Virus record (IMG/VR): IMGVR_UViG_3300030117_006024 | Span: 1-40,110 of that record | DNA: 40,110 nucleotides | Source of the DNA: a virus | Strand: one strand, 5' to 3' | Part shown: positions 1 through 32,933 of the stretch, piece by piece | How the letters are laid out: each line of letters begins with the position of its first letter | Position numbering within the stretch: the stretch's first letter is position 1 | Program-made: the position numbers and the translations under genes | The notes under the pieces: generated by a model | The model's input: the letters and a program-made list of their open reading frames with translations, nothing else | Told to the model about the DNA's origin: nothing | The model's database searches: none

Positions 1-1
1 G

Positions 2-889: not shown

Positions 890-953
890 GGCATATGGAT
901 ATCATCGTACTGCTAGTTAAGCTCATACAACATATTGTGTGACATATAACCAT

Positions 954-983
954 TTGACACCATATCTGGTATTGGGGTAGGAT
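954..983 (+). promoter_or_regulatory. Sigma70-like promoter ahead of the terminase genes
   Basis: TTGACA at 954-959 is a perfect -35 box. TAGGAT at 978-983 matches 4 of 6 positions of the -10 box, with an 18-base spacer. Transcription would begin near 990, only a few bases before an intrinsic terminator at 994-1024. It would drive the packaging and structural genes if read-through occurs. Confidence 0.5.
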
Positions 984-993
984 CGTGGCCGAG

Positions 994-1024
994 GACGTGC
1001 GTCTAAAACGCGCGTCTTTTTTTT
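994..1024 (+). terminator. Intrinsic terminator in the terS leader
   Basis: GACGTGCG (994-1001) pairs with CGCGCGTC (1009-1016) with one G-U wobble and a 7-base loop, followed by eight T residues (1017-1024). It stops transcription arriving from the left. Because it lies downstream of the TTGACA promoter, it may also act as an attenuator or antitermination target. Its presence argues against the GTG at 985 being the terS start. Confidence 0.75.
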
Positions 1025-1035
1025 ATGGAGTGATG

Positions 1036-1506: not shown

Positions 1507-1522
1507 CCCGATTGAGCTGCAT

Positions 1523-1537
1523 CAGATAAACTATCTG
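1523..1537. repeat. Operator-like inverted repeat CAGATA-AAC-TATCTG
   Basis: A perfect 6-bp inverted repeat with a 3-base centre in the gap between terS and terL. It is short enough to occur by chance, but it lies in a non-coding stretch that also has a tandem repeat. Possible binding site for a packaging or regulatory protein. Confidence 0.35.
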
Positions 1538-1573
1538 GCGCACTGCCAATGATATCAATGACTTAGATGGTTT

Positions 1574-1595
1574 GAGTCTGCTCGGAGTCTGCTCG
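1574..1595. repeat. Tandem direct repeat, 2 x GAGTCTGCTCG
   Basis: Two perfect, adjacent 11-base copies (1574-1584 and 1585-1595) in the terS-terL gap. The GAGTCTG core also occurs three times in the attP region (25321, 25587, 25613), where it looks like an integrase arm site. A pac/cos-type recognition element is another reading. The rest of the gap (to 1703) is C/G-rich and has no gene. Confidence 0.55.
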
Positions 1596-1703
1596 ATCGG
1601 GAGAAACTGAGGATTCGGCCCCCCCTTTCGCGATCGGCACCCCCTGCAGCGGCGCGGCTGGGGGCAGCGCTAACGGTAGGATACAAACGGACTCGTCAAA
1701 CAC

Positions 1704-3026
1704 ATGGCCCCAACGCACATAACGATCCCATATAAGCCGCGCCCGTTTCAAAAGCAGTTCCATGAGAACGCACGCCGCTGGAACGTCGCCGTATGCCACC
1801 GGCGCGCAGGCAAAACATACATGGCGGTCCACTGGCTCATACGCGGCCTTGTGGAGTGCCCGCACCCCAACCCGATTGGCTGTTATATCGCGCCGACGTT
1901 TAGCCAAGCGGAACGCATTGCATTTGAGTATGTACGCCAAGCGACCGAGATGTTCCCAGGCGTCAAATACAACAAAGCGAAATTACGGGTTGAGATCCCG
2001 ATAGGCGACCGAAACAAGATCACGATCCACCTGCTCAGCGGCTCCAACGACTCCAGCGAACAGATTCGCGGCTTGGCGCTCGATCAGGTCATATTTGACG
2101 AATATGCGGACATCCCCGCAAAAGTGTTCCCACAGATCGTGAGACCAGCTCTGGCAGATCGGCGTGGCAATTGCCTCTGGATCGGCACCCCCAAGGGTGA
2201 TGACGCGTTTAAGGCGATATACGACAAGGCGGTTAAAGAGGTCGCTGCTAAAAACCCTGATTGGCACTGCGTTTACCTGCCAGCCGACAAAACGAACAGT
2301 TTGAGCAAAGCGGAGCTGAAAGAGCTGCGCGACCAAATGTCGGACAACGAATATAGAGCCGAGCTGCTATGCGATTGGGGTGCCCACATCACCGGCGCAT
2401 ACTACGGCGAGCAGCTCAGTAAGGCAGAAGCCGAGGGAAGAATAGGCAACATCCCGCACGACGAGACCATGCTGGTAAATACGAGCTGGGATCTCGGCGT
2501 CAGAGACAAAACCAGCATCATCTTTTGGCAAGAATCGGCAGGCGCGAGCATCCGGCTTATCGACTGCTACCAAGCCTCCGGCGAGGGTCTCGCACACTAT
2601 GTGCAAGTGCTGCAGCAGCGCGCATTCGATAAAGGGTACAGTTACGGCGACCACCTGTTCCCACACGACACCGACACCCGTGTCCTGGCAGCAACCGCCC
2701 AACGCCGCAGCGACATATTAAGGCAGCTCGGCATCATGCCAACCATCGTGCCCATGCGAAAGGTGGCCGAGGGCATCGAGGCCGTGCGAGCGATACTGCC
2801 GAGAACGTGGATTGATGAGGAAAATTGCAAAGAGGCGCTCAGCGCCCTTAAACAGTACCGCGTGAAGGAGAGCAGCGGCCTGCCGCTGCACGACGTGAAC
2901 AGCCATTTCGCCGACGCCATGCGCTACTTAGCAATCGGCTATCGCGAGGGCATGAGCAGTTTCGGCAGCTATAGAAAACCCTGGGATCAACCGCTGGAAT
3001 ATGAGAATCCGGCCCAATTTGTTTGA
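1704..3026 (+). CDS. terL: Terminase large subunit (TerL)
   Basis: The 440-residue packaging motor cuts and pumps DNA into the prohead. ATPase domain: Walker A CHRRAGKT (about residues 31-38), Walker B VIFDE (129-133) and coupling motif GTPKG (161-165). RNase H-like nuclease domain: the first acidic residue in SWDLGVRD (D263), a middle HDTDTR and a C-terminal HFADAMRYLAIG supply the metal-binding acids. Length is normal for the family and both domains look intact. The frame is closed by TAG at 1677, so the ATG at 1704 is the practical start, although no good Shine-Dalgarno precedes it. Head of the structural operon together with terS. Confidence 0.95.
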   Translation: MAPTHITIPYKPRPFQKQFHENARRWNVAVCHRRAGKTYMAVHWLIRGLVECPHPNPIGCYIAPTFSQAERIAFEYVRQATEMFPGVKYNKAKLRVEIPIGDRNKITIHLLSGSNDSSEQIRGLALDQVIFDEYADIPAKVFPQIVRPALADRRGNCLWIGTPKGDDAFKAIYDKAVKEVAAKNPDWHCVYLPADKTNSLSKAELKELRDQMSDNEYRAELLCDWGAHITGAYYGEQLSKAEAEGRIGNIPHDETMLVNTSWDLGVRDKTSIIFWQESAGASIRLIDCYQASGEGLAHYVQVLQQRAFDKGYSYGDHLFPHDTDTRVLAATAQRRSDILRQLGIMPTIVPMRKVAEGIEAVRAILPRTWIDEENCKEALSALKQYRVKESSGLPLHDVNSHFADAMRYLAIGYREGMSSFGSYRKPWDQPLEYENPAQFV

Positions 3027-3036
3027 GGAAAGACAC

Positions 3037-3144
3037 ATGCCAAAAGTAGGTGGAAAGTCATTTGCGTACACGGCCAAGGGTAAAAAAGCTGCCAAAGCGT
3101 ATGCCAAAAAGAAGACTAAGAAGAAAACCGCAAAGCGAGCGTAA
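3037..3144 (+). CDS. Lysine-rich 35-residue basic peptide
   Basis: A short gene with a GAGGAAAG ribosome-binding site upstream of ATG 3037, ending in TAATG so that its stop overlaps the next start. The peptide begins MPKVGGKSFAYT and is then almost entirely Lys and Ala. Similar tiny Lys/Ala-rich proteins often accompany terminase or portal genes in marine podoviruses. A DNA- or RNA-binding or DNA-condensing role inside the capsid is plausible but is inferred from composition only. Confidence 0.75.
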   Translation: MPKVGGKSFAYTAKGKKAAKAYAKKKTKKKTAKRA

Positions 3145-4463
3145 TGGCGGGCCTGCTATCTGACCATTTTGAGGATCTGCAGTATCGCGGCGCGATATTG
3201 CCATTTGGCAGAACGAAAAAGGGTAGCACAGTATTTGCGACGCCAGGGCTGCTAGTAGACGCCATCAAGTCTATGGAGCTGCCAGGGCGCGCGCTGCGCG
3301 GCGAAAACATATCGGCCGACGACGTCACAAAAATGGCAATGGACACGATGGGCGGTGGCGGTTTGTTGAGCCGCGCAGTACCGACCGGCGACGTTGGCGG
3401 GCTGTTAGGCATCAACGTCTTCCACGGCGGGCCAAATAGATGGGCACCAGAGCCAGGGTTTCCGCAAGGCCGTCCACGTCTAGACAAGATGGGAACCGGC
3501 GAAGGCGCTCAAGCGTATGGGCATGGGTTTTATAGTGCGGAAGCGCCTGGAGTTGCAACGGGGTATAGGGACGCATTGCAACGCATGGGCAACCCATCTG
3601 TTAAAGACAGAACAGGCAGTTTTAGTGAACTATTGTCAAAGTATTACCCCGCAAGTGAAGGTAAATATTCACAACAAGTTGAGGTTAATGGGCTTGTCTT
3701 TCAAGGACCAGATCAGGTTGTTGATGGGATCAAAGGCGGTTTAATAAAAAAGGGCGACGTGCCAGATGAAATATTTAGCGCGGCACAAACATTTTTAGAA
3801 CCTGGCACCCTCTACAAACTCGACATCCCCGACGCCGACGCCGCTAAATTTTTAGATTATGACGCGCGGATAAAAGATCAGCCGAAAGAATTGCGGGACG
3901 CTTTATTTGGCGCGTTAGAGGATTTGCAGGGTTTCAAACAATTAATACCTGCCGAAAAATCAACATTAACAGGGCAACAGCTTTATCAAAAAATTGTAGA
4001 TGCTGCCGAGAGTGCAATAAGTTCACACCCCGACGCCTGGCTACCATCTGCCAAACGAGCTTTACAGCAGGAAGCCGCATCCGAAGCTCTTCGCAAAGCT
4101 GGCATCCCTGGCCTCAAGTATTTCGACCAAGGCAGTCGCAGTGGTTCAAATAAATCAGTATTTGTGGATGGCGCAGACGTTAGAGATTCGAGGTTTGTTA
4201 GTGAGCAATCAGCGGCAGACATTTATTTAAAACACGATGGCAATATCGAAAAAGCATTAAATGAAGCAAAACAAAAATTTGCTGATTTAAATGCTAATGC
4301 CAAAGACACGCCGCAGTGGTTTAGTGCGAGAGACACGATGCGTGTTTTAGAGAGCTGGGGTGATGATCCTGGCGTCTTAACAATTAAAGATGTCGGCACC
4401 CGCAACTACGTCACCTGGGACCAAGACGTCCTAGACCGCACCAAAATTTTGGAACGACAATGA
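3144..4463 (+). CDS. Polyvalent virion-type protein with ADP-ribosyltransferase-like domain
   Basis: A 439-residue protein. Residues about 91-145 carry the signature of ART domains in phage polyvalent proteins: a VFHGGPNRW strand with the His of the H-Y-E type, then GTGEGAQAYGHGFYSAE (about 117-133) and YRDAL. The second half has the matching GIPGLKYFDQGSR (about 320-332) and, after an insertion of roughly 85 residues, RNYVTWD near the C-terminus (420-426). Such enzymes transfer ADP-ribose from NAD+ to proteins or nucleic acids. Phage ARTs delivered with the DNA (T4 Alt is the classic case) modify host RNA polymerase. The N-terminal 80 residues are Gly-rich and lack a known fold. The position between terL and portal suggests a packaged protein; the target is unknown. 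Confidence 0.65.
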   Translation: MAGLLSDHFEDLQYRGAILPFGRTKKGSTVFATPGLLVDAIKSMELPGRALRGENISADDVTKMAMDTMGGGGLLSRAVPTGDVGGLLGINVFHGGPNRWAPEPGFPQGRPRLDKMGTGEGAQAYGHGFYSAEAPGVATGYRDALQRMGNPSVKDRTGSFSELLSKYYPASEGKYSQQVEVNGLVFQGPDQVVDGIKGGLIKKGDVPDEIFSAAQTFLEPGTLYKLDIPDADAAKFLDYDARIKDQPKELRDALFGALEDLQGFKQLIPAEKSTLTGQQLYQKIVDAAESAISSHPDAWLPSAKRALQQEAASEALRKAGIPGLKYFDQGSRSGSNKSVFVDGADVRDSRFVSEQSAADIYLKHDGNIEKALNEAKQKFADLNANAKDTPQWFSARDTMRVLESWGDDPGVLTIKDVGTRNYVTWDQDVLDRTKILERQ

Positions 4464-4681
4464 AAACCCGCATTCACGTCAATCAGCATGTCGTAAAAGC
4501 AAATCGCAAGACAGGTGCGTGTGATCCGGTGCTTACGGTAAAAACCTACAAAGAAAATAATTATGCGCATGAGGTCTCAATCGATGGACCTAGCAAGGTA
4601 ATTTATCGACCAGACAAGCCGCTAAGTTGTGGTGCCCACGTTTGGATCGAAACCGAGAATAACGTGGAAATTATAGATTAA
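4460..4681 (+). CDS. Small conserved-looking phage protein, 73 residues
   Basis: Starts in the ATGA overlap with the ART-like gene and ends in TAATG with the next gene, so it is translationally coupled on both sides. The product starts MKTRIHVNQHVVKANRK and ends with a CGAHVWIETEN segment. It looks like a compact beta-rich protein, and I recall similar short proteins scattered through phage genomes with no assigned role. No membrane segment or metal motif. It could be a partner or immunity-like factor for the ART-domain protein because of the tight coupling, but that is guesswork. Confidence 0.7.
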   Translation: MKTRIHVNQHVVKANRKTGACDPVLTVKTYKENNYAHEVSIDGPSKVIYRPDKPLSCGAHVWIETENNVEIID

Positions 4682-6891
4682 TGCCCAACATTTATGACCG
4701 ATACTTACCGACCGGCCTGCTCGATATGGCACGCGATGCCTATCAAAAGCCAAGTACCTTTTTTAAAAAGGCAACCGGCCCATTAGGTGGATTGTTGGGG
4801 ACCATACCCGAGTTTTTGCCAGGAGCTGGCATGTATGAGAGCCAAGGGTACGGCAGGCAAGCGGAAGATCAGTTTAGAAGGAATAATTACCTTACCGCTC
4901 TAGGTCTATTAGCCACGGGCATGGGCACGGCAGCGCTTGAGCTGGTGCCAGGGGGCGCAGCAGCCGGTGGAGCTGCAAGAGTAGCCCGACGCGGCGCACG
5001 CCAGCAGCAGCCAACGATGCCAAGCGCTATGATGAGGGAAGAGACGGGCGGCGGTTATCAAGGTAGCCCACCGCCGGTGCCAAACGAGTCAGCGACGCGT
5101 GGAATATTAGGTACGCCTGATTTGCGTGAACTAACCAGCAAGGAAGCTGTTGTTGCAGCGCGATCCGAGCCTCATCTAATGCAAGATAAAACCGGTCAAT
5201 ATATTGGCGCTCCGCGAGGCGTAAGAACGCGCAAACAGATCGAAGAGATGCGCAAAAAATTCGATGCCGAGGTTGAAAAAGGCATGGCGGGGGCAAATTG
5301 GTACACAAGGGCACGCGCCTTTAACAGAGAAATTGCAGGTCCATCAGCAGACAGGCAGAGTCTTGCAGCATCTGAGGAAGCTCTCTGGTCTGCGCAGGCT
5401 AACCCAGATACCAACATGGGTTTCATGTTGCTAGGCCATAATGCTTATGAGGCGGGTGTGCCCTTGTCGCAGGTACGCACGGGCGCTCAAGCGCGCAATT
5501 ACAATGAGGCGCGAGCGCAGGGTGTTAACCCCAGGTTGGGCAAAAAAACTGGTATCTATGGTCAACATCTAGATCCTACAAGAGTAGAAGCGACGACCGG
5601 CACCAATGATATTTGGCACGCGCGGCAGTTTGGTTACACAAATTCGGATGGCAGCACGTTCTCACGCGCGTTAAGTCCACAGGAGCATCGTTTCTTAGAT
5701 TATGAGACGATGCTTGCCGTAGATAGGGCACAGAAACGCGGTATGGGCGGCAGGAAAGATTGGCGCGCATCTGAAATACAAGCCGCGCCTTGGGTATCAG
5801 GAAAGGGAAAAGCAGAGGCCGCGCGTCGCAATTTAAGCGAGGAAGAGGGCGTGGCAATCGCGTCAAAAACCTATCCAGATTATGGGCCAAAATATACAGC
5901 CTATGGCACGTCTGAGCAGGTGCCTGGAAAATCCACCGGATTGCTGGACGAAGTCCAGGCGTCGAGTTATCCAGCAAAAGAAAAATTTTCGGAAAAGGCA
6001 AGCTGGGTTGATGAGACGGGCAGAGACCCAATTTATTCAGACCTGGGGATGTATGTGCGGCGCTCTGATCAGGGGCCAGGATATTATATAAATTCCGAGG
6101 GCAAGCCGGAAATTAATCCGGTTACGGTAAGTAAGCCGCTTGTTTCTTACAGAAAAGACGCAGAAGGTCTTTTAGAAATTCCTAAAACTGACACGGCAGC
6201 AATGGACGCCGGAGAGGCTGTGCGCGGTCTGCTTGATATGCAAGAGGGTGCGGCGTGGAATAAAATCATTACCCACGACGTCAAGGGCCCAGATCGGTCG
6301 TCTCTTGATATAAACATGGGCCGCTTGCTCAATAAAAAGGAATTGGCAGCAGCAAACGAGGTAGCGTCCAAACACGGCTTTGGCATGGCTAATACCGAAA
6401 ACGGTGTAGCATTTTTAGATTTTGAAGACCGGACCTTTAGTGAGGTTGGTAAAATATTAAAAGGTGGCCTTGCTGATGAAATCAATAAAGCCTTACCAGG
6501 GGCAGAGGTTCTGCGCGGCAGATTGCAAAGCGGGTATATTGATCAAGCAGAAAATTTAGCCAAGGAGCTGGAAGGCAGCGGCCGCGCCACCAAACAAATG
6601 GTTTCTTATCTAGAGGAGCTAAAAAAGGTAGCGCCGGAATATTTTGAAAAAATACTCGACAGCGAGGGCGTATCTAAAAAAGCCCAGGCCAACCTTGACC
6701 GCTTAATTGAGTATGGCGGTAAAGGTCAGCGCAAGGACTATGAAGAACTGCTTAAAATTGTAAGCAAAGGTAAGCTAAGAGGCTTGTTGAAACGCATTGC
6801 CTCTAGCGGTTATCGAGGTCTTCCGGTAGTTGGTGGGGCTGCAGTAACGGGAAGCTTGATGGCCGGAGGCGACGATACTGCTCCAGAGTGA
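4681..6891 (+). CDS. Large polyvalent / putative ejected virion protein, 736 residues
   Basis: The N-terminus has a Gly/Ala-rich, weakly hydrophobic region (about residues 68-105), as in proteins that insert into the host envelope. Residues about 205-290 (NWYTRARAFNREI ... SQVRTGAQARNYNEAR) resemble a helical domain recurring in virion polyvalent proteins. A middle region with tyrosines and PVTV/PLVSY segments follows, and the last 200 residues are helical and charged, ending in VVGGAAVTGSLMAGG, a possible membrane helix. I infer a packaged protein delivered with DNA, coupled to the ART-like protein two genes upstream. No enzymatic motif is evident. The 3' end overlaps a minus-strand gene by 89 bases. 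Confidence 0.6.
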   Translation: MPNIYDRYLPTGLLDMARDAYQKPSTFFKKATGPLGGLLGTIPEFLPGAGMYESQGYGRQAEDQFRRNNYLTALGLLATGMGTAALELVPGGAAAGGAARVARRGARQQQPTMPSAMMREETGGGYQGSPPPVPNESATRGILGTPDLRELTSKEAVVAARSEPHLMQDKTGQYIGAPRGVRTRKQIEEMRKKFDAEVEKGMAGANWYTRARAFNREIAGPSADRQSLAASEEALWSAQANPDTNMGFMLLGHNAYEAGVPLSQVRTGAQARNYNEARAQGVNPRLGKKTGIYGQHLDPTRVEATTGTNDIWHARQFGYTNSDGSTFSRALSPQEHRFLDYETMLAVDRAQKRGMGGRKDWRASEIQAAPWVSGKGKAEAARRNLSEEEGVAIASKTYPDYGPKYTAYGTSEQVPGKSTGLLDEVQASSYPAKEKFSEKASWVDETGRDPIYSDLGMYVRRSDQGPGYYINSEGKPEINPVTVSKPLVSYRKDAEGLLEIPKTDTAAMDAGEAVRGLLDMQEGAAWNKIITHDVKGPDRSSLDINMGRLLNKKELAAANEVASKHGFGMANTENGVAFLDFEDRTFSEVGKILKGGLADEINKALPGAEVLRGRLQSGYIDQAENLAKELEGSGRATKQMVSYLEELKKVAPEYFEKILDSEGVSKKAQANLDRLIEYGGKGQRKDYEELLKIVSKGKLRGLLKRIASSGYRGLPVVGGAAVTGSLMAGGDDTAPE

Positions 6892-7063
6892 GCCTCTCGC
6901 CTTCTTTGAGCCAAAAACGAGCCACGTCGCCATCTTCATTTAAATGCACGAACATGCCCTTTTCATATCTGTCTGGGTATGCTCTGCGGTGCCACTTATT
7001 ATACTTTTCGATCATTTCGCGGCTCATCCGCGAACTGACAAAAGCAGGTCCATCATCACTCAT
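6803..7063 (-). CDS. Antisense small gene inside the structural module
   Basis: An 86-residue ORF read from the minus strand, tail-to-tail with the 736-residue gene and overlapping it by 89 bases. The ATG at 7063 has a strong AGAGGAGA ribosome-binding site of the same type used by the early/lysogeny genes; a longer frame starting with GTG at 7111 is less likely. The protein has a natural-looking composition (Trp, Tyr, Arg-rich helix followed by GMFVHLNEDGDVARFW), unlike a shadow ORF. Function unknown. Its strand and ribosome-binding site suggest expression apart from the late genes, for example from the prophage (a moron-type gene) or early in infection. Confidence 0.6.
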   Translation of the reverse strand: MSDDGPAFVSSRMSREMIEKYNKWHRRAYPDRYEKGMFVHLNEDGDVARFWLKEGERLTLEQYRRLRPSSFPLLQPHQLPEDLDNR

Positions 7064-7064
7064 T

Positions 7065-7076
7065 AGGAGATCTCCT
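7065..7076. promoter_or_regulatory. 12-bp perfect palindrome AGGAGATCTCCT at a ribosome-binding site
   Basis: The Shine-Dalgarno of the minus-strand gene starting at 7063 is embedded in a perfect palindrome. In RNA the AGGAG could pair with CUCCU next to the start codon, which would lower translation; as DNA it could be an operator. Confidence 0.45.
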
Positions 7077-7171
7077 CTCTTTAGTGCTTTAGGCGGGATG
7101 CCAAGGCGCACAAGCTGAAGTTCAAATGCCTGCGTAATTTATACCTGACCCCAACCTAAAAGGAAACACCC

Positions 7172-7375
7172 ATGAGCCTACGAATGGAAGCGGCAATACA
7201 AGACCTGACCCGACGCATTGAGGCGCTCGAAGCCGCCGCACGACCGGCCAAGATCGTAAAGCCAAAGCACCTGGGGTTCGGTAAGTGGGGCCTGCAGGAC
7301 AACAGCGGCCAGCTCATAGACAGTGGTCCATATAGCAAGGAAGCCGCCCAAAAGGCAGCGCAAGTCGAGGCATAA
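7172..7375 (+). CDS. Small coiled-coil protein upstream of portal, 67 residues
   Basis: AAAGGAAA precedes ATG 7172, and the TAA is followed immediately by the portal ATG. Residues 1-25 form a heptad-like helix (MEAAIQDLTRRIEALEAAA). The rest (GFGKWGLQDNSGQLIDSGPYSKEAAQKAA) looks like a small alpha/beta unit. Probably a portal-associated or assembly factor; no function can be read from the sequence. Confidence 0.65.
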   Translation: MSLRMEAAIQDLTRRIEALEAAARPAKIVKPKHLGFGKWGLQDNSGQLIDSGPYSKEAAQKAAQVEA

Positions 7376-9535
7376 ATGGCAAGACGCAAGAAGGTAACAA
7401 CGCAGGCACTTAAAGCTATCATCAGCGACGGCCTGCGAAATAGCGCTGGCTACTATGGCGGCGAGCTGCAGCGGCGCAGAGAGAAGGCGCTTGAGTATTA
7501 TCTCGGCTACCCGATGGGCAACGAGATCGAGGGCCGCAGCCGCGTAATTAGCACTGATGTCATGGACACGGTTGAGAGCATGTTACCCAGCCTGCTCAAA
7601 GCATTTACTAGCACAAACGACGTTGTGAAGTTTGAGCCGGTCGGCCCCGAGGATGAAGCCGCCGCAGGCGTGGTCAGCGACTACTGCAACCACATATTTT
7701 TAAAAGACAACCCAGGCGTCATGCTGCTGCATGAGGTGTTTAAAGACGCGCTACTTTCCGGCTTTGGATGTCTCAAGACGCAATGGGTGGAAAAGACAGA
7801 CGTCACGACCGAGATGTATGAGGGCCTGACCGATGAGGAAATGGTCCTTATGCTCGCGGATAGAGAGGTCGAGGCGGTTGAGCATACAGTAACCGAGGAG
7901 CAAGTTAGCCTGGGGTCAGACGACTTGAGCCTCGAAGCTCCCGCCTCGCGCTCACACGATCTGAAGATCCGGCGCAAAAAGAACACCGGTCGCGTGGTCA
8001 TTGAATCAGTTGCGCCCGAGGACTTCTTTATCGAGCGCCGCGCACGCACTTTAGAGGAAGCTAATTTCGTTGCGCACCGCGCACGCTACACGGCCAGTGA
8101 CCTCGTCGCGATGGGCTACAAGAAATCAATTATCGACAACATCCCGTCGGTAAGTGATGAGCATCTCGGAACCGAGCAGCTCCTGCGAGAGGGCTTAGAC
8201 GATAGTGACTTTGGCAACTACCAAGGCGGCGAAGACGCACACGACCCCAGCCGCAGAGAGATTTATCTATACGACACATATGTGAAGGTAGATAGAAACG
8301 GCGATGGTATCGCCGAATGGGTGAGGGTACTGGCTGCAGGTTCAGGTGCTTACGAGATATTAGATGAAGAAGAAGTCGCGGAACCGCCTTTCAGTTGCCT
8401 CATTCCTATCCCAATGCCGCACCGGTTTTTCGGCATGTCTCTCGCAGACCAGCTCTTCACGATCCAAGACATCAAGACCAGCCTTTGGCGCAACTATCTA
8501 GACAGCGTCTATATCGGCAATAACCACCGTCATGAGGTGGTAGAGGGCATGGTCAACATGGACGACATGTTGAACAGCCGCCCAGGCGGTATCGTGCGCG
8601 TCAAACAGCCTGGGATGGTGCGCGAGCTGCAGCATTCGCCGGTCGGCCCGAGTGTGCTTGAGGCCATGCGTTATGCTGATGAGGTTAAAGAAGTGCGCAC
8701 GGGCGTGACAAAGAACGCCCAAGGTATCCACCAAGATCAGCTCAACCCCAACGCGACCGCGACCGGCGTCAAGCTCATGCTTGGTATGGCGCAGCAGCGC
8801 ATCGAGATGATCGGCCGCATCTTCGCAGAGGGCGGCGTCAAAGATCTGTTTAGCAAGATCCTCAAGTGCGTTGTCATGCACCAGCAGCAGGAGCGCATGG
8901 TCAGGATTCATAATCAGTGGGTGCCAATGGACCCAAGAAACTGGGACACACAATACGACGTCACCATCCAAGTCGGTCTAGGGTATGGCAATGATGAGAA
9001 ACGCGCCTTGGCCCTGACCAACGTCATCAATGCGCAAAAAGAGCTGGCCGGAAACATGGGCTTTGGCCCTGGCTCAATCGTCAGCAGGCAGAACGTATAC
9101 GCCAGCCTCACAGATCTGACCAAAGAGGGCGGCATCGATGGTGCCAAGTATTTCACCCAGCCTGCGCCCGACGGCTCAGACATGCCGCAGCCACAGCCTG
9201 ATCCAAACCAGACGTTTATGGAGAACCAGCTCAAGATCGAGGGCGAGAAGTTAAACGTGCGACGCGAAGAGATCCAGGCCGAGCAGGCGCGGAAGATGCA
9301 GGAGCTGGAAGCTGAGATGCAGATGAAAGCGCAGGAGCTGGAGATGAAGATGGCCGAGATGAACCAGCGCCTAGCTATCGAGCGTGAGAAGATAGCGGCC
9401 AACATCGAGCAGACCGCAGCCAAGATTGCGGCTGACGCGGAAGCCGGTGCCAGCAAGCTGGCCGTCGAGGCTGAGATGGCACGCGAGCGCTTAGAGCATG
9501 AAACTTTCGAGGGTGATAAGGACCGTCTATCATGA
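7376..9535 (+). CDS. Portal protein (P22-like)
   Basis: A 719-residue protein forming the dodecameric ring at the capsid vertex through which DNA is packaged and released. The start (MARRKKVTTQALKAIISDGL ... RRREKALEYYLG) and the body with VIESVAPEDFFIERRA, FGMSLADQLFTIQDIKTSLWRNYLD and NPNATATGVKLMLGMAQQRIEMIGR follow the P22-type portal pattern. The last 120 residues are a long Gln/Glu/Met-rich coiled coil (the barrel/tail of large portals). No truncation. Position after terminase and before scaffold and capsid genes is canonical. Confidence 0.93.
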   Translation: MARRKKVTTQALKAIISDGLRNSAGYYGGELQRRREKALEYYLGYPMGNEIEGRSRVISTDVMDTVESMLPSLLKAFTSTNDVVKFEPVGPEDEAAAGVVSDYCNHIFLKDNPGVMLLHEVFKDALLSGFGCLKTQWVEKTDVTTEMYEGLTDEEMVLMLADREVEAVEHTVTEEQVSLGSDDLSLEAPASRSHDLKIRRKKNTGRVVIESVAPEDFFIERRARTLEEANFVAHRARYTASDLVAMGYKKSIIDNIPSVSDEHLGTEQLLREGLDDSDFGNYQGGEDAHDPSRREIYLYDTYVKVDRNGDGIAEWVRVLAAGSGAYEILDEEEVAEPPFSCLIPIPMPHRFFGMSLADQLFTIQDIKTSLWRNYLDSVYIGNNHRHEVVEGMVNMDDMLNSRPGGIVRVKQPGMVRELQHSPVGPSVLEAMRYADEVKEVRTGVTKNAQGIHQDQLNPNATATGVKLMLGMAQQRIEMIGRIFAEGGVKDLFSKILKCVVMHQQQERMVRIHNQWVPMDPRNWDTQYDVTIQVGLGYGNDEKRALALTNVINAQKELAGNMGFGPGSIVSRQNVYASLTDLTKEGGIDGAKYFTQPAPDGSDMPQPQPDPNQTFMENQLKIEGEKLNVRREEIQAEQARKMQELEAEMQMKAQELEMKMAEMNQRLAIEREKIAANIEQTAAKIAADAEAGASKLAVEAEMARERLEHETFEGDKDRLS

Positions 9536-24570: not shown

Positions 24571-24992
24571 TCACACAGGATTTAATCGACTCGGTTAAAT
24601 TAGGGGAAGGGTTTAGCCGGACTGTATACACGGATTCTCTGGGCCACCTTACAGTGGGATACGGCAAGCTGGTAGATCCAAATGTTGCTGGTGCTGGTCT
24701 GACGGAAGAACAGGCCGAGCAATTGCTAAGAAGTGACCTCGAAGTTTTTGAGGAAGCGGCCGAGCGTGTCGTCGGCTCGGAGGTGTGGAGCTGGCTCAGC
24801 CAACGCCGTCGCGACGTCCTGACCGAAATGGCGTTTAACATGGGGCCAGGAAACCTTGCCAAATTCACCAACATGATCGCAGCGCTTGAGGAACAGGACT
24901 ACGACCTTGCCGCTTCCGAGGCCCTCGACAGCCGGTGGGCTAAACAAGTAGGCCAGAGGGCCGAAAGACTTGCCCAAAGACTTCGCGGATGA
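24567..24992 (+). CDS. Endolysin, T4-lysozyme type (GH24 muramidase)
   Basis: 141 residues from ATG 24567, in ATGA overlap with the holin; GAAGAGG precedes it, so the longer frame from 24528 is not needed. The catalytic triad spacing equals that of T4 lysozyme: E14 in LGEGF, D23 in YTDSLGHLT and T29 in LTVGYG (+9 and +15). Later conserved segments: LTEEQAEQLLRSDL, MAFNMGPGNLAKFTN and SRWAKQVGQRAERLAQRL. It cleaves peptidoglycan. No signal or SAR helix at the N-terminus, so it needs the holin for export. Confidence 0.93.
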   Translation: MITQDLIDSVKLGEGFSRTVYTDSLGHLTVGYGKLVDPNVAGAGLTEEQAEQLLRSDLEVFEEAAERVVGSEVWSWLSQRRRDVLTEMAFNMGPGNLAKFTNMIAALEEQDYDLAASEALDSRWAKQVGQRAERLAQRLRG

Positions 24993-25287
24993 ACGCAGAT
25001 TTACCGGCGCGCTCTGCGAGCTGCGCCTTGCCCAGTGGTTATTAGAAAACCAGTATTGGGCATTCTCCCCCGTAATCAATCACGACTCCCCCATCGACCT
25101 AGTCGCCGTCGGTCAAGACGGCGAGGTCTTGCTGCTCGATAGCAAGGCAGACAACATGCGTGTCAACAAAGGTCGCATTTCCCCCTCGCGAATCTACCGC
25201 CCAAGATCTGAGCTGCAGAAGCGACTCGGTGTTAAAATTGCCTACGTTGCAGCCGACGGCACGGTCTCAATCACCGACCACGATTGA
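24970..25287 (+). CDS. PD-(D/E)XK nuclease-like protein, 105 residues
   Basis: Starts with TTG 24970 inside the endolysin gene (23-base overlap); no in-frame ATG is suitable. Features of the restriction-endonuclease fold: an early Glu in a helix (GALCELRLAQWLLE, E17), HDSPIDLVAV with D43 and LLLDSKAD with D57 and K59. A basic segment follows (RVNKGRISPSRIYRPRSELQKRLG). The family of short, Hjc-like or PDDEXK proteins acts on DNA junctions or nicks. Beside attP it could serve recombination, or be a stray accessory gene. Catalytic activity is not certain from the motifs alone. Confidence 0.5.
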   Translation: MPKDFADERRFTGALCELRLAQWLLENQYWAFSPVINHDSPIDLVAVGQDGEVLLLDSKADNMRVNKGRISPSRIYRPRSELQKRLGVKIAYVAADGTVSITDHD

Positions 25288-25291
25288 TGTT

Positions 25292-25309
25292 GCCAGATTA
25301 TTTGCAGAC
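25292..25309 (+). repeat. attP arm: left half of an 18-bp inverted repeat
   Basis: The 18 bases here are the exact reverse complement of those at 25614-25631. The inner end reads TTTGCAGAC, the reverse complement of GTCTGCAAA. Probable integrase or Xis arm-type site. Confidence 0.65.
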
Positions 25310-25310
25310 G

Positions 25311-25332
25311 GGTCTGCGATGAGTCTGTAAAC
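25311..25332 (+). repeat. attP arm: left copy of a 22-bp direct repeat
   Basis: Identical to 25576-25597 except for one base (GCGATG versus GCGGTG). It contains GAGTCTGTAAAC. Flanks the tRNA-derived core on the left at about 145 bases. Confidence 0.65.
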
Positions 25333-25477
25333 GGTCTCCGAGGTCTTGGTGCCTTGTTGACTGAATTGGTTTTTTTTAGTAGGAATTATCAGCGCTGTTT
25401 TTGGTGGGTGACGCCAGTAAAAACCGCTAACTTGTTGAAAATATTGGGTAATATCAAAACGCCCAAGATGGTGAAAG

Positions 25478-25526
25478 TCAGATTTTCATTCTGGCAACAC
25501 GGGTTCGAATCCCGTAGGGGTCACCA
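25478..25526 (+). other. attP core: 3' half of tRNA-Glu(UUC)
   Basis: The anticodon stem-loop TCAGA-TTTTCAT-TCTGG has anticodon TTC (Glu, GAA codons). It is followed by a 5-base variable loop, a perfect T-arm ACGGG-TTCGAAT-CCCGT, the acceptor 3' strand AGGGGTC, discriminator A and an encoded CCA. No D-arm or matching 5' acceptor strand (GACCCCT) lies upstream, so this is not a functional tRNA gene. It would rebuild the host tRNA gene after integration. Confidence 0.85.
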
Positions 25527-25575
25527 TTTCTTTTCAATGACTTAGCAGGTTTTTACCTCCCCCCTCAAGCAGCGG

Positions 25576-25597
25576 GGTCTGCGGTGAGTCTGTAAAC
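25576..25597 (+). repeat. attP arm: right copy of the 22-bp direct repeat
   Basis: Matches 25311-25332 at 21 of 22 bases, same orientation, about 50 bases right of the tRNA-derived core. Contains GAGTCTGTAAAC. Confidence 0.65.
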
Positions 25598-25613
25598 TCG
25601 CGCAGATTCGTGA

Positions 25614-25631
25614 GTCTGCAAATAATCTGGC
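25614..25631 (+). repeat. attP arm: right half of the 18-bp inverted repeat
   Basis: Reads GTCTGCAAATAATCTGGC, the perfect reverse complement of 25292-25309. It lies 13 bases upstream of the early promoter's -35 box, so integrase or Xis binding here could also affect that promoter. Confidence 0.65.
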
Positions 25632-25643
25632 GGCATATTTTGT

Positions 25644-25672
25644 TTGCAATAGTAAGTAAAAATTACTAATAT
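25644..25672 (+). promoter_or_regulatory. Early operon promoter candidate
   Basis: TTGCAA (25644-25649) and TAATAT (25667-25672) are separated by exactly 17 bases; each matches 4 of 6 consensus positions. The spacer and surroundings are AT-rich with AGTAA/TTACT half-sites that could bind a regulator. It would drive the zinc-ribbon gene and the following early genes. Confidence 0.45.
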
Positions 25673-25682
25673 CTTACTTGTC

Positions 25683-25705
25683 AGCGGCGCTGTTGCCGCT
25701 TTTTT
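25683..25705 (+). terminator. Intrinsic terminator in the early operon leader
   Basis: AGCGGC (25683-25688) pairs with GCCGCT (25695-25700), 6-base loop, followed by a T-run to 25705. It lies between the promoter candidate and the ribosome-binding site of the first early gene, so early transcription may need antitermination. It may also insulate the operon from host transcription in the prophage. Confidence 0.7.
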
Positions 25706-25720
25706 GAGAGGAGAGACACA

Positions 25721-26329
25721 ATGGAACAATTATTTTTTAGAGACGGTACACCGGCTGAGCCGCAAGAATTTACTTCAAAAGGCAAGCCGCTTGCTTTGAA
25801 CACTTGCCGCCGCTGCGGCGGTGGAGGTCGCTTTGGCCCAGAGGTTATTTTTTCGGGCAAGTGTTTTGAGTGCGAAGGACTTGGCAAATCATTGGTTCGC
25901 ATTCGCACTGCTAAAGAAAACGCAGCTATGGATCGTGCAAACGACCGCCGCCGAGCCAAAAAAATTGCTCAGCAAAAAACTGATGCCGAGATCCGCAAGA
26001 TCAAGAAAATGCGGCACGATGTGCGGCGCGGGTTTTGGGCCATCGAGGAACTTCACGCCAAAGCCGACCGCCCAAACAATTGGATCGGTGAGAAGGGCGA
26101 GCGTCGTGACTTCACCGGCACGGTTCGTTTTATCGCGAGTGGCGAGGGCAACTGGGGAACTTGGTTTCTTACTGTCATCGACACTGACCAGGGTGCAGTC
26201 CTTTGGTGGAACGCTTTTGCTGACGTGTCCAAAGGCGACGCAATCAAATTTAAAGCCACCATCAAAGATCACACTGAGCGTGACGGCGAAAAGCAGACCG
26301 TCGTTAACAGAGCAAAGGCGGTGGCCTAA
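25721..26329 (+). CDS. Zinc-ribbon plus OB-like nucleic-acid-binding protein, 202 residues
   Basis: The GAGAGGAGAGACACA leader sits directly before ATG 25721. Cysteines C29-x2-C32 and C48-x2-C51 (CRRCGGGG ... CFECEGLG) form a DnaJ-like zinc ribbon. A basic helix of about 50 residues follows (RANDRRRAKKIAQQKT). The C-terminal 75 residues (DFTGTVRFIASGEGNWGTWFLTV ... GDAIKFKATIKDHTERDGEKQTVVNRAK) look like a five-stranded OB domain. The combination suggests single-stranded DNA or RNA binding early in infection. First gene of the rightward early operon. Confidence 0.7.
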   Translation: MEQLFFRDGTPAEPQEFTSKGKPLALNTCRRCGGGGRFGPEVIFSGKCFECEGLGKSLVRIRTAKENAAMDRANDRRRAKKIAQQKTDAEIRKIKKMRHDVRRGFWAIEELHAKADRPNNWIGEKGERRDFTGTVRFIASGEGNWGTWFLTVIDTDQGAVLWWNAFADVSKGDAIKFKATIKDHTERDGEKQTVVNRAKAVA

Positions 26330-26716: not shown

Positions 26717-26747
26717 CGGCCCCGCTATTGAGAGGAGAGACACAATG
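26710..26747 (+). repeat. Intergenic linker repeat, copy 2
   Basis: GGCTTAACGGCCCCGC, then GAGAGGAGAGACACAATG. Same arrangement as copy 1, again including the stop of one gene and the start of the next. Confidence 0.7.
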
Positions 26748-27656
26748 ACAAAACGAGTAGTTCACGGTTTACCGATAAGCGGCATCGATCCAGAAACTGA
26801 CAAGCCTGCCATCGACAGCTTGGCTGGCGGTAGCTTCCTCGCGACGTATTACTACACCCGCCCTGGTCAAAAGAAGATCAGCGACGAGCAGATCGACCGC
26901 GCCATCGAGCTGGTCGGTGACGACGAGGTGTTTTTCTTGGACAACGGCGCTTTCACCGCATACCGCTCCGGTGAGCCAATCCACGAAGATCCCGATTACA
27001 TCGACGGCTTTTACGATTGGGCCGAGAGCGTCATGGACCGCTGCCCCCAAGCCGTCGCGATTGTGCCTGACGTCATTGGCGGCACTGCCGAGCAAAACTG
27101 GGAGCTGGCATCTCAGTTGCCTTGGGATCCAATGCGGTCCTGCTACGTCTGGCACTTGCATGAGCCGCTGGAAGTATTGAAGCGCATCATTGAGGAAGGC
27201 TACGCCTATATCGGGTTCGGCAGCTCCGAAGAATATTGGAAGGTCAACAGCCCAATCTGGCAGGACCGCATCGACGCTGCCTTCGCATATTTGGATGAGC
27301 TGTTCGCCGACGAGGATTTCGCTCAGACATATGTGCGCCCACAGATCCACATGCTGCGCGGCATCAGCGTGCAACATGCTTACCGGTTCGACAGCGCTGA
27401 CAGCGTCAACCTTGCGATCAACTGGAACCGTCAGCGCAAGAAGTCTAACGAGCAGCTCGGTGCCTTCCGCGCTCGCGTCGAGAGCAAGGCGAGCCAAGGC
27501 GACGTCTTTGGTGATCAATCAGCCTGGGGTACGCCCGCCGACGCCGGTCGATATGCCGGTTACCGCAACGCGCAGCTCCACTTGTTAGCCTATCAGGCTG
27601 AGCTGCGCGCTAACGATCTAACCTTCATACCCCAACAATTCCGGCGCGCGGCCTAA
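26745..27656 (+). CDS. TIM-barrel protein resembling DpdA-type DNA transglycosylases
   Basis: 303 residues with the early leader. Segments in order: VFFLDNGAFTAYRSGEP (about 62-78, with the FLDNGAF Asp where TGT enzymes have their DSGGF Asp), VAIVPDVIGG (104-113), CYVWHLHEP (133-141), YAYIGFGSS (153-161) and near the end MLRG ... FDSADSVNLAINW (about 205-226). This strand-end pattern matches TIM-barrel tRNA-guanine transglycosylase relatives, including the phage DpdA group that exchanges DNA guanine for 7-deazaguanines. No preQ0 synthesis genes (folE, queD, queE, queC) occur here, so a base would have to come from the host. The zinc site of tRNA TGTs is not evident. An unrelated TIM-barrel enzyme remains possible. 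Confidence 0.5.
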   Translation: MTKRVVHGLPISGIDPETDKPAIDSLAGGSFLATYYYTRPGQKKISDEQIDRAIELVGDDEVFFLDNGAFTAYRSGEPIHEDPDYIDGFYDWAESVMDRCPQAVAIVPDVIGGTAEQNWELASQLPWDPMRSCYVWHLHEPLEVLKRIIEEGYAYIGFGSSEEYWKVNSPIWQDRIDAAFAYLDELFADEDFAQTYVRPQIHMLRGISVQHAYRFDSADSVNLAINWNRQRKKSNEQLGAFRARVESKASQGDVFGDQSAWGTPADAGRYAGYRNAQLHLLAYQAELRANDLTFIPQQFRRAA

Positions 27657-28652: not shown

Positions 28653-28745
28653 ATGACGACAGAAGACTTACTTGAGATTCCCGACTTTTTAAACCGTAAA
28701 CTTTGGTCGCCGGAGCGGTGTCAATACGCGGCGGGAGCGGCGTGA
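28653..28745 (+). CDS. 30-residue peptide before the acetyltransferase gene
   Basis: The GAGAGGAGAGACA leader stands before ATG 28653, and its TGA overlaps the next ATG (TGATG at 28743-28747). The peptide reads MTTEDLLEIPDFLNRKLW at its start. The tight coupling and strong leader suggest that it is translated, either as a product or to deliver ribosomes to the next gene, which has no leader of its own. Confidence 0.55.
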   Translation: MTTEDLLEIPDFLNRKLWSPERCQYAAGAA

Positions 28746-29293
28746 TGGCAAAGCTCGAACACAAGCGCATCAAGCTAGATGAGGTAGCTCGATTTATCGA
28801 GCTGTATCATCATCACAGCAAGCCGCTTAAGCGTCACTTCTTTGCTATTGGCGCAACGGCTGAAGTATCGCCCTACTGGCCTCCCCACGATTTTTGTTTA
28901 GTCGGTGTGGCGCAGGTAGACAATTGCACGTCTGCATGGTCACGGCGCTATGACCACCTAGAGCTGCGTCGCCTCTGCATTGCACCGCACGCACCACCTA
29001 ACACTGCCAGCTTTCTTATTGGCAAAGTAACGCGCGCTTGCTGGGCAATGGGTGCAGAGGTGCTTGTCACTTACACACAACCTTATGAGAAGGGCACCGC
29101 CCTGGTTGCCAGCGGCTGGTGGATACAGCAGCGCGCCAAGATGGTGAAGTATGAAAGCGGCCGCATGGAGGGTGGCCTGATGAGATGGGTCACAGCGCGC
29201 AGCGTTGGGCCAGACAAGCGCGACCGAGAAAACACCAAACGAATTATTTCCGAGACTAACCAATGGTGGGCTGAGAACAGTCAGGCCGCTTAA
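28745..29293 (+). CDS. GNAT-like acetyltransferase, XF1762-type
   Basis: 182 residues starting with ATG 28745 (the frame is open back to 28703, but that would overlap the coupled peptide). N-terminal ARFIELYHHHSKPLKRHFFAIGA, then FCLVGVAQVDNCTSAW, a central LELRRLCIAPHAPPNTASFLIGKVTRACWAMGAEVLVTYT and C-terminal GTALVASGWW follow the XF1762 family, whose fold is GNAT-like. GNAT enzymes transfer acetyl groups from acetyl-CoA; the phage target is unknown (protein, nucleotide or modified base). It lies in the early operon, next to the DpdA-like gene region. Confidence 0.7.
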   Translation: MAKLEHKRIKLDEVARFIELYHHHSKPLKRHFFAIGATAEVSPYWPPHDFCLVGVAQVDNCTSAWSRRYDHLELRRLCIAPHAPPNTASFLIGKVTRACWAMGAEVLVTYTQPYEKGTALVASGWWIQQRAKMVKYESGRMEGGLMRWVTARSVGPDKRDRENTKRIISETNQWWAENSQAA

Positions 29294-29312: not shown

Positions 29313-30500
29313 ATGTTATCAATGAGAACCTACACATCGAGATCAAAGAAACGTGCGCTTTGTGTAAGCGGCCCAGAGCTGCAGCTTGTCGAAGGGCAGA
29401 AGACAAAGTGGTTTCCCAATACCCAAGCAGGGCAGCGAGAGGCAATGGCGTTCATGGAAATCTGCTATGAGCAAGCTGCTGAAAAAAAGCAGTGGACTGA
29501 CCACAGCGACACACCGCTATTTGGATCACCCGACGAGCCAGGAAGTTTCTGTCACAAGTTTATTGAGTACGAGACCAGTCGCACGCTGCCGAGCATTGGC
29601 GACCTTTCTATGGTTGAGGTCAGAGAAAAGGCGTGCGCGCTACGCCAGATCGGTGAGTTCAAGCATGACGGTGTCAAGCTGCGCGATGTAAAAATTGGAG
29701 ACGTGCAGCGCGGCGTGATCATGTCCGACATCGTGCAAAAGATAGCGGCGTTGGGTGCCAAGGCGACGGTCAAACGAAAGTGGACCTATTTTAAGCAGCT
29801 CTTCGACTACGCGGTTGCTTGTGATCAAATTAAGCAAAACCCGTGCGCATTTAAAAATGGCAAAATGCCATTTCACGGTAACACGGTCTCTCACACTGAG
29901 CGGCTCAACGATCTAGATGAGGTCATTGCTAAAGTCCTTGAACATGCACCAGAGCGCTACAAACTTGCTATGATTTTTGCAGCATACACTGGCTTGCGAG
30001 CGGGGGAACAAATTGCCCTCACTTGGGATGATATTGATTTTAAGCGCAAGAAAATCAACGTCGATAAGGCTAAGAAAAAGACTGGATTGATTGGTTGTCC
30101 AAAAAGCACGCGCGGAAGGCGCAAGGTTGATTTGCCGCCTAACCTCGCGTTGCTGCTAAAAAAATGGGAAGTCAATCAATCACCGGCTGAGCGTCAAAAA
30201 CATAATTTGGTTTTCCCGACGCAGTTCGGTGACTATGCCAGTACAGAGACTTGGCGGCGCAGCGGCTTGCACAAAGCTTGCAAGAGTGCTGGAGTAGAAA
30301 ACATACGATGGCATGATTTTAGACACTTTTATGCCTCAACGGTGATTTTTAAATTTAACACGTCGCCGCAAAAGGTTTGTCGGTCAATGGGTCATCACGA
30401 CTTTTCGTTCACGCTGAGACAGTATGGTCACTGGTTTGATCAGTTGCAGGACGATAGCGAACTTGGCGATCAGATTTCGGCATTAATGGGAGGAATGTAA
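29313..30500 (+). CDS. int: Tyrosine integrase
   Basis: 395 residues with the early leader. N-terminal arm-binding type region (first about 90 residues, beta-rich), a core-binding helical domain (about 95-190) and a catalytic domain. Catalytic residues: R229 in YTGLRAGE, Lys in the beta-hairpin (about K264, GCPKSTRGRRKV), H334-x2-R337 in WHDFRH, H361 in SMGHHD, Y371 in LRQYGHWF. All are present, so the enzyme should be active. It would recombine the attP at 25.3-25.6 kb with the 3' end of a host tRNA-Glu gene. Confidence 0.92.
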   Translation: MLSMRTYTSRSKKRALCVSGPELQLVEGQKTKWFPNTQAGQREAMAFMEICYEQAAEKKQWTDHSDTPLFGSPDEPGSFCHKFIEYETSRTLPSIGDLSMVEVREKACALRQIGEFKHDGVKLRDVKIGDVQRGVIMSDIVQKIAALGAKATVKRKWTYFKQLFDYAVACDQIKQNPCAFKNGKMPFHGNTVSHTERLNDLDEVIAKVLEHAPERYKLAMIFAAYTGLRAGEQIALTWDDIDFKRKKINVDKAKKKTGLIGCPKSTRGRRKVDLPPNLALLLKKWEVNQSPAERQKHNLVFPTQFGDYASTETWRRSGLHKACKSAGVENIRWHDFRHFYASTVIFKFNTSPQKVCRSMGHHDFSFTLRQYGHWFDQLQDDSELGDQISALMGGM

Positions 30501-31415: not shown

Positions 31416-31697
31416 CAATTCAGCTTGGATCAGAAAGTCGATGTATTGTCGAGCCTTGTTTAGATCGACAACGCCGCCCTTGTCCTGGTATCGGGAAATA
31501 TATTTGACGACGTTACCCTCACAATAACCAAGCTCATTAGACATGATGAAATCAATTGGCTCGATGCCGCCTCGACTTACGTAATGCTTCGGCCGTGTGA
31601 TCGGGTCATAGTCAGGCGTGACGCATTCATCACACAGCTCGGTCGAGTCGCCCACGCGGATGAAGTGATTGCCGCCGCACTTTGCGCATTCACTCAT
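31395..31697 (-). CDS. DUF3310 protein with N-terminal zinc ribbon, 100 residues
   Basis: Starts at ATG 31697, 8 bases inside the upstream HTH gene. N-terminal C4-x2-C7 and C22-x2-C25 form a zinc ribbon. The C-terminal 55 residues are the DUF3310 pattern: RPKHYVSRGGIEPIDFI, then LGYCEGNVVKYISRYQDKGG, DLNKARQYIDFLI. DUF3310 includes the T7 gp1.7-type proteins linked to nucleotide metabolism. It is odd to find it at the end of a repressor operon rather than among replication genes. Length with the added ribbon is typical. Confidence 0.85.
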   Translation of the reverse strand: MSECAKCGGNHFIRVGDSTELCDECVTPDYDPITRPKHYVSRGGIEPIDFIMSNELGYCEGNVVKYISRYQDKGGVVDLNKARQYIDFLIQAELKKETPR

Positions 31698-31878
31698 CTT
31701 CTGCGCTCTCAAACTGTTTGAGATCCGCGCGGCGAATGTAAAACTTTTTGCCATCTTTGAAGATATGGACGTTGTTGCACTTGAGCAGCTCGACCGTGCG
31801 GTTGCGGCTTGTCCGGTTTTCGTTGCCCCATAGCAGTTGCGCGGCCTCTTTGAGGCTTACTAGTACACCGGCGCTCAT
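31690..31878 (-). CDS. Excisionase-like HTH protein, 62 residues
   Basis: ATG 31878 overlaps the stop of the 352-residue gene (ATGA). The pattern VSLKEAAQLLWGNENRTSRNRTVELLKCNNVHIFKDGKKFYIRRADLKQF is a winged-helix MerR/AlpA/Xis-type domain: HTH, then a beta-wing, then the final helix. Size is that of recombination directionality factors. It may set integrase direction or regulate promoters. If it is Xis, expression from the repressor transcript would be unusual. Confidence 0.65.
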   Translation of the reverse strand: MSAGVLVSLKEAAQLLWGNENRTSRNRTVELLKCNNVHIFKDGKKFYIRRADLKQFESAEDE

Positions 31879-32933
31879 GCCGCCACCCGATAGTCGTGGG
31901 TTACAGATCCGGCCTCGGGCGAGCCAACAAAGCAACCTCTGACCCAAGTCTTCTGACCGTTTTTAAATCGTCGCACATGGCCGCGCCTAAAATGGTATCG
32001 CTTTGGCGTGTATTCCTCTCGCGGCCCACTGTGACCAAGCGTCTCGCGGACAGGGGCAACCTTAACAACAGTGTGAGACACTAATGGCTCTTTGCCCTTG
32101 CGCACGCGGCTTTTATTTAAGCGGTCAGGTGCCTCAATATACTCTCTCTCAATGCCTTTAGAATCTAACCGGCCAAGTGCGCAAAGCATAAAATGGTACA
32201 TACGCAATCCGACTTCCCCCCAATCCATTGTTATTTCTTTTTTTGAATCGGGGATTTTAGCTAGGTTAATGCAAGCCTCGCGTCCCTGTTGCAGAGCTTC
32301 CGCATAATGTTTTGAGGTAAATGACTCAGTTTGGTTGTTTTGCAAATGGTGGAGTTTGAGCCAATCTTTCCGCAAAACCATATCAACGTCATTTTTCAAA
32401 TGATATTTAGCCAGTGATTCAGCGTCTCGGGGAAATTCAATAACCCATCCATTTGTTGTCCATGCTTTGAACTGCTCAATGTCAATAAATTCTAAAGCAA
32501 AAATGCCATTGGCCTCGTCGCGAACTGTCCAAGGGAGCTGTGAGGCTGTTCCAGACACCATGCTATTAATCGGTATTTGAGCAAGCCAAAGAACAATCTT
32601 TAACATTCCCCCACTTGCATCAAAGGTTTGGCATTCGAAAACGCTAATGGGTGCAGGCAAGTGTAAAAATTTTTCATAAAATGGCTCAACAGCAACCATC
32701 GACTCTTCATGCACTTGTTCCCAATCCATAAAACCAAAATCAAAGAATTGAGGTTTCCAATCAACTATTTCATTTGAGCCTGTTTTAACGTCTTGCATTC
32801 CGCTCAATAAATTTAGCATTTGGGAGCGGACATCGTCTTTTAACTTAAACGGTTCAGCCGAATAAAATTGAGGCTCAGTGTCTGACTCTGGATTTTTATT
32901 AAGCAGCGCCTGCCGGAGATTATGTATCTGCAT
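31875..32933 (-). CDS. 352-residue protein of the lysogeny operon, basic C-terminus
   Basis: ATG 32933 overlaps the stop of the membrane peptide (TGATG); the longer frame to 33074 is not needed. N-terminal two thirds mixed alpha/beta with many Trp and Phe (DWKPQFFDFGFMDWEQVHEE, GGMLKIVLWLAQIP). The C-terminal 50 residues are basic: YTPKRYHFRRGHVRRFKNGQKTWVRGCFVG, a motif that I recall from phage and mobile-element proteins of unknown function and which may bind nucleic acid. Translation is coupled to the 32-residue peptide. A superinfection-exclusion or abortive-infection role is suggested by this setting but not shown. Confidence 0.65.
   Translation of the reverse strand: MQIHNLRQALLNKNPESDTEPQFYSAEPFKLKDDVRSQMLNLLSGMQDVKTGSNEIVDWKPQFFDFGFMDWEQVHEESMVAVEPFYEKFLHLPAPISVFECQTFDASGGMLKIVLWLAQIPINSMVSGTASQLPWTVRDEANGIFALEFIDIEQFKAWTTNGWVIEFPRDAESLAKYHLKNDVDMVLRKDWLKLHHLQNNQTESFTSKHYAEALQQGREACINLAKIPDSKKEITMDWGEVGLRMYHFMLCALGRLDSKGIEREYIEAPDRLNKSRVRKGKEPLVSHTVVKVAPVRETLGHSGPREEYTPKRYHFRRGHVRRFKNGQKTWVRGCFVGSPEAGSVTHDYRVAA

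Follow-up and report, generated by a model that had tools for sequence, protein, structure and literature searches.

A predicted anticodon-class attP with composite outer sites in a temperate, podovirus-like marine phage

The IMG/VR virus record IMGVR_UViG_3300030117_006024 (40,110 nucleotides, all of which was analysed and is referred to here as the window) carries a piece of a tRNA-Glu(UUC) gene set among short repeats at positions 25292–25631, and this arrangement raises the question of whether the region is an integration site and what its outermost repeats are for. Judged by sequence comparison, it is confirmed as a complete tyrosine-integrase attP of the anticodon class, with the coordinates given in the original prediction exact. 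It is highly probable that the attP belongs to a temperate, podovirus-like phage whose hosts are marine Rhodospirillaceae and whose integrase is of the lambda type, and that the outer sites of the attP are composite.

The gene content of the window is temperate and podovirus-like, with genes for portal, scaffold, major head protein, terminase, ejection protein and endolysin, together with an S24 repressor, RusA, Sak4 and an integrase. A sister virus (IMGVR_UViG_3300030098_004965), with an integrase 93% identical and the core, arms and spacing kept, joins the two ends of the window (window 40110 to 8089, and window 1 to 8082), and the record is therefore a circularly permuted, near-complete map from which the predicted gene order follows. 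The prophage would read tRNA-Glu, early genes, integrase, repressor, packaging, structure, lysis and tRNA fragment. The claim that the prophage ends part the lysis genes from the early genes follows from this map, but such an order is ordinary for temperate phages; a Bradyrhizobium prophage has its integrase at one end and its lysozymes toward the other. The sister record also contains two diverged copies of window 3255–4456, one near each end (L060 2920–3923 and the end of L062), which reflect either gene duplication or a mixed-strain assembly.

The attP region sits between ORFs at 24970–25287 and 25721–26329, and has the following elements, with the putative promoter that follows it.

25292–25309, − strand: left outer composite, core-type-like half-site GCCAGATT (25292–25299, inverted) plus arm-type TTTGCAGAC (25301–25309, inverted)
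25312–25331, + strand: left pair of arm-type sites, GTCTGCGAT at 25312 and GTCTGTAAA at 25323, 11 bp apart
25428–25440, − strand: left IHF-like site, TTTCAACAAGTTA, centre −52 from crossover
25479–25526, + strand: attP core, CAGATTTTCATTCTGGCAACACGGGTTCGAATCCCGTAGGGGTCACCA, 48 bp identical to positions 31–78 of host tRNA-Glu(UUC)
25532–25544, + strand: right IHF-like site, TTTCAATGACTTA, centre +52 from crossover
25577–25596, + strand: right pair of arm-type sites, GTCTGCGGT at 25577 and GTCTGTAAA at 25588, 11 bp apart
25614–25631, + strand: right outer composite, arm-type GTCTGCAAA (25614–25622) plus core-type-like half-site AATCTGGC (25624–25631)
25644–25700, + strand: promoter-like TTGCAA-17-TAATAT and hairpin, directly before the first early gene

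The tRNA-Glu(UUC) 3′ half is present at 25479–25526 without a 5′ half, as had been proposed, and no tRNA is called by ARAGORN in the window. The proposed match to a host tRNA 3′ end is likewise exact, but the base preceding the core is T in the phage and C in the hosts, so that identity to real tRNA-Glu(UUC) genes extends over 48 bp and not 49. Because identity to the host tRNA starts inside the 5′ strand of the anticodon stem, the crossover most likely lies in the 7 bp anticodon loop TTTTCAT (25483–25489). The predicted repeats are also borne out. The 18 bp inverted repeat (25292–25309 and 25614–25631) is perfect, extends to 23 bp at 91% identity, and is longer than any in 200 shuffles of the region (maximum 16, mean 8.7). 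The direct repeat (25304–25332 and 25569–25597) covers 29 bp at 90% identity, the inner 23 bp having the expected single mismatch, and the longest direct repeat measures 13 as against a maximum of 11 in 200 shuffles of the region. The sequence that they share, GTCTGYAAA, has five copies in 40 kb, and four of the five are in the attP region. The symmetric arm sites that were predicted do include arm-type sites, but the distal half of the inverted repeat copies the target tRNA, a feature missed earlier.

Measured from the crossover centre (the anticodon loop, 25486), the paired arm-type sites are at −174/−163 and +91/+102, and outer arm-type copies are at −184 (inverted) and +128. Candidate arm sites are thus found on both sides, with candidate IHF-like sites between the arms and the core, in the layout of the lambda type. 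Both IHF-like sites are one mismatch from WATCAANNNNTTR, and two are observed where 0.39 are expected per region. This count is only suggestive, but in relatives with a tRNA-Arg core (Arg types, see below) the specified bases persist while unspecified ones change: the left site keeps TTTCAA and TTA with the NNNN changed, and the right site is identical between Glu and Arg types. In relatives with a tRNA-Met core (Met types), a site at −31 matches the IHF consensus perfectly.

Two genes are of immediate relevance.

29313–30500, + strand: tyrosine integrase, 395 aa, carrying the catalytic residues R, K, HxxR, H and Y
31690–31944, − strand: possible excisionase, weak TIGR01764 match (E 0.02, below cut-off)

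The catalytic domain of the integrase matches PF00589 (E 6.5e-20), and the R, K, HxxR, H and Y residues are invariant in six relatives. A low-confidence structure model (mean pLDDT 58.6), on which the domain boundaries depend, places a likely arm-binding part at about aa 1–60, the core-binding part from about aa 79 and the catalytic part from about aa 194; its N-terminus has strands at 4–9, 14–19 and 31–35 and a helix at 38–57, and a three-strand, one-helix N-terminal fold has been described for integrases with an arm-binding domain (PMC8138268). The phages collection contains no DNA match to the attP, and its integrases are about 23–27% identical among the matches listed.

When one genome per species is scanned for exact copies, the 48-mer turns up in three contigs, each from a marine Rhodospirillaceae MAG (SI036_bin45, SP18 and ARS31) with a complete 78-nt tRNA-Glu(UUC) gene. 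A sample of 297 genomes of the host order yields the same three, along with eight genomes in which the match has one mismatch. All of these matches are full tRNA genes or assembly-cut copies, the tRNA of one genome being cut by contig ends. When host and phage flanks are joined in silico, ARAGORN finds an intact tRNA-Glu rebuilt at one junction only. The search originally recommended, for genomes with the same tRNA-Glu 3′ end, thus produced three MAGs with 48/48 identity, and the host-site prediction stands in so far as such Rhodospirillaceae exist; we infer integration at this tRNA-Glu from the sequence match. The companion search for prophages joined there gave none: no prophage, attL or attR is seen at tRNA-Glu among the 297 genomes, a small sample in which absence is no disproof, and membership of the attP class does not require one. 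These genomes also contain no core fragment lacking its 5′ half, save for one contig-end case (G073), and their integrases are at most 36% identical to that of the phage among the matches listed. In G073 the tRNA-Glu lies exactly at two contig ends (L054 5–52 and L059 4–51) that share a short overlap; these look like assembly branching, and an element may occupy tRNA-Glu in some members of the population. In the host order, prophage-like MCP loci (G237 and G240) have no tRNA in the stretches examined and no similarity to the phage integrase, and MCP relatives in IMG/VR are mostly partial contigs with neither integrase nor tRNA fragment.

Searching with the gene to the left of attP identified relatives that have other cores at the same place. 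L160 and L162 have the tRNA-Arg(UCU) 3′ half as the core, and L164, L165 and L180 have a tRNA-Met(CAU) core, as does L166 by alignment with L165. The neighboring genes of the window and L160 are nearly identical (98% for the 24970 ORF and 99% for a queuine tRNA-ribosyltransferase-like, or TGT-like, gene), but their integrases are 90% identical over aa 1–60, 64% over aa 61–120 and 48% over aa 121–200 (87–90% and 48–49% for the first and last of these in L160 and L162 together), and nucleotide identity drops at 29553 (aa 80), the modelled start of the core-binding part. The attP follows the same pattern, with identity lowest at 25370–25569 (67–72%) and higher in both arms (82–88%), and with arm sites kept in register around a different core in L160 and L162. 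What the Glu/Arg switch has altered is the core together with the core-binding/catalytic part of the integrase; the arm sites and N-terminal domain have stayed. Two Met-type phages present the reverse: L164 and L165 have different arm sites and are 50% identical over the initial 120 nt of int, whereas the core and central region are kept, as is most of the integrase, and the outer half-sites AACCTGAC are identical. The comparison is of six attPs, which fall into three types and come from related phages, and so covers few independent events. It amounts to a natural domain-swap series in which integrase halves and att sub-sites have changed independently and reciprocally; it distinguishes arm-type from core-type contacts with no need for mutants, and suggests further core-type sites at the ends of the attP. 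All three cores (Glu, Arg and Met) are matched exactly in the MAG SP18, which has complete tRNA-Arg and tRNA-Met genes, and having all three target tRNAs in one MAG provides a host link for this group of uncultured marine temperate phages.

The distal part of the outer repeats is AATCTGGC in the Glu type, AATCCGAC in the Arg type and AACCTGAC in the Met type, identical in both arms of each phage, and it corresponds to the right half of the core carried by the same phage (TCTGGCAACA for the left arm of the window and TAATCCGACG for the Arg-type right arm; about 14/16 core bases are copied in the Met type). From Glu to Arg, the change of the core from TCTGGC to TCCGAC is accompanied by a change of AATCTGGC to AATCCGAC in each arm. 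The half-sites therefore change along with the core and the C-terminal part of the integrase, and are kept when the arm sites and N-terminal part change. In a test devised after the pattern was noticed, and resting on few independent events, the combined-arm match to the core was reached by 5/400 shuffles for the window, 0/400 for the sister, the Arg types and L165, and 1/400 for L164; each arm alone gives weak p-values, and both arms with local scoring are clearer. These half-sites are best read as extra core-type sites that the C-terminal part of the integrase would bind. They are absent from distant integrases with nearby tRNA ends (L019 and L028–L047), and the feature is therefore not general. 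L019 has a tRNA-Lys(UUU) 3′ half at 8577–8626, about 0.1 kb from an integrase match (a 27% relative).

The integrase (29313–30500) is most likely hetero-bivalent and of the lambda type. Its N-terminal domain would bind the GTCTGYAAA arm sites, while the core-binding/catalytic part would pair the 48 bp core with the host tRNA-Glu(UUC) 3′ half, with an IHF-like protein bending the spacers and strand exchange taking place in the anticodon loop. Integration would replace the tRNA 3′ end with an identical phage copy, by which the tRNA-Glu gene would be preserved. At the outermost inverted repeats, an arm-type site appears to abut a target-matched core-type half-site, and these half-sites may hold, until tRNA capture, the two integrase protomers meant for attB. 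We suggest tentatively, as a possibility that is less likely than not, that the attP carries its own mock attB on the outer half-sites, such that a change of target needs matching changes in three attP places and in the integrase, which is separated from them by kilobases. How the lambda attP complex recruits a bare attB is a long-standing question (PMC4880445), and parked half-sites, if real, would be one testable answer to it.

Alternative roles for the outer half-sites deserve consideration. They could be operators, with integrase on both composites forming a loop that represses its own early operon. The right composite (25614–25631) is about 13 bp upstream of a promoter-like −35 at 25644, and autoregulation by att-bound integrase is established for KplE1 IntS (PMC2951348); however, the promoter-like sequence (25644–25672) was read by eye and was not returned by a consensus scan, none was identified beside the left copy, and autorepression alone needs no copy of the target tRNA, so that we regard this as rather unlikely. 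It is less likely still that the half-sites are fossils or coincidence, either remnants of an earlier core or part of a longer arm-type motif. The remaining arm-type copies have no such extension, the Met type copies about 14/16 core bases, and the half-sites change together with the core when the arm sites and N-terminal domain are conserved, yet persist through arm-site turnover; the shortness of the Glu-type right-arm copy (6–8 bp) and the weakness of the single-arm tests are what speak for it.

A further alternative is that the tRNA piece is left over from the decay of a tRNA gene carried by the phage and plays no part in integration. Phages do have tRNA genes, and none of the 297 genomes has a prophage at this tRNA, but the 3′ half is intact and exact with the 5′ half absent, the piece lies between arm repeats, and relatives have the 3′ halves of other tRNAs there, each with a different integrase core-binding part; the probability of this explanation is negligible. 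Integration through the tRNA fragment, with the outer half-sites as core-type contacts, is the reading that we prefer.

The type of attP is a familiar one. Islander lists 2083 islands in site class A, the anticodon type (PMC4383910), and these likewise have a tRNA 3′ fragment in attP, a restored tRNA and a crossover inferred in the anticodon loop; the present case differs in involving tRNA-Glu of uncultured marine Rhodospirillaceae, an attP of about 340 bp and outer target-matched half-sites. Marine metagenomic phages have been linked to hosts through an exact 36–46 bp tRNA fragment plus integrase (Mizuno et al. 2013, PMC3861242), with other hosts and other tRNAs, and arm sites and target switching are outside the analysis in the portion of that report considered here. 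Lambda and HK022 have the same hetero-bivalent design and a conserved N-terminal domain with a diverged core/catalytic part (100% identity over aa 1–55, 69% over aa 65–169 and 73% over aa 170–356). In lambda, by contrast, int adjoins attP, and the same test reveals no significant outer copies of the core half-sites in its attP (116/400 and 53/400). HP1 attP shares the anticodon-type tRNA core and has copies of core half-sites in both arms (0/400 in the same test, the direct match being AT-rich), fusion to arm-type sites and symmetry being features of the outer sites seen in the window. The HP1 integrase is described as having two types of binding site, and HP1 may be a precedent for outer core-type sites. 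The target-following half-sites thus suggest a little-described extra integrase contact within a well-known type of tRNA-targeting attP.

The separation of attP from int, put at 3.7 kb and considered an uncommon trait in the original prediction, is not fixed. The integrase gene lies 3.8 kb from the core in the window and 1.3 kb from it in the sister; the corresponding figures are 2.4 kb (L160), 2.5 kb (L162), 0.9 kb (L164) and 0.2 kb (L165), a range of 0.2–2.5 kb among the relatives, and the difference consists of whole inserted genes. The variation comes from gene cassettes that enter at a repeated leader, GAGAGGAGAGACACAATG, where gaps between the window and its relatives begin and finish and which occurs at ten places in the early region versus 0.04 expected.

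25706–25723, + strand: first leader copy, GAGAGGAGAGACACAATG, the boundary where attP–int cassettes differ among relatives
25706, 26342, 26730, 27670, 28024, 28290, 28636, 29299, 31211 and 34330: leader copies

From these comparisons the separation appears to be variable cargo behind the first leader and not a fixed design. In the cluster K mycobacteriophages, many start codons are likewise immediately preceded by a repeated sequence (PMC3203893), in that case a different sequence in a different host, and the copies here also mark cassette boundaries. The promoter-like sequence and a terminator-like hairpin (25683–25700, with a T run) right behind it are mostly kept in relatives (25644–25709), and in the prophage the hairpin region could shield the early genes from the tRNA-Glu promoter. 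The Met-type L164 has its own leader version, AGGAGCACCCCAATG. Among the cargo is the queuine tRNA-ribosyltransferase-like gene (26745–27656, phrog_887), which is 99–100% identical in L160 and L162 and whose product has no match to solved structures by sequence, and a Mom-like/XF1762-family gene (28742–29293); the two are possibly DNA modification cargo.
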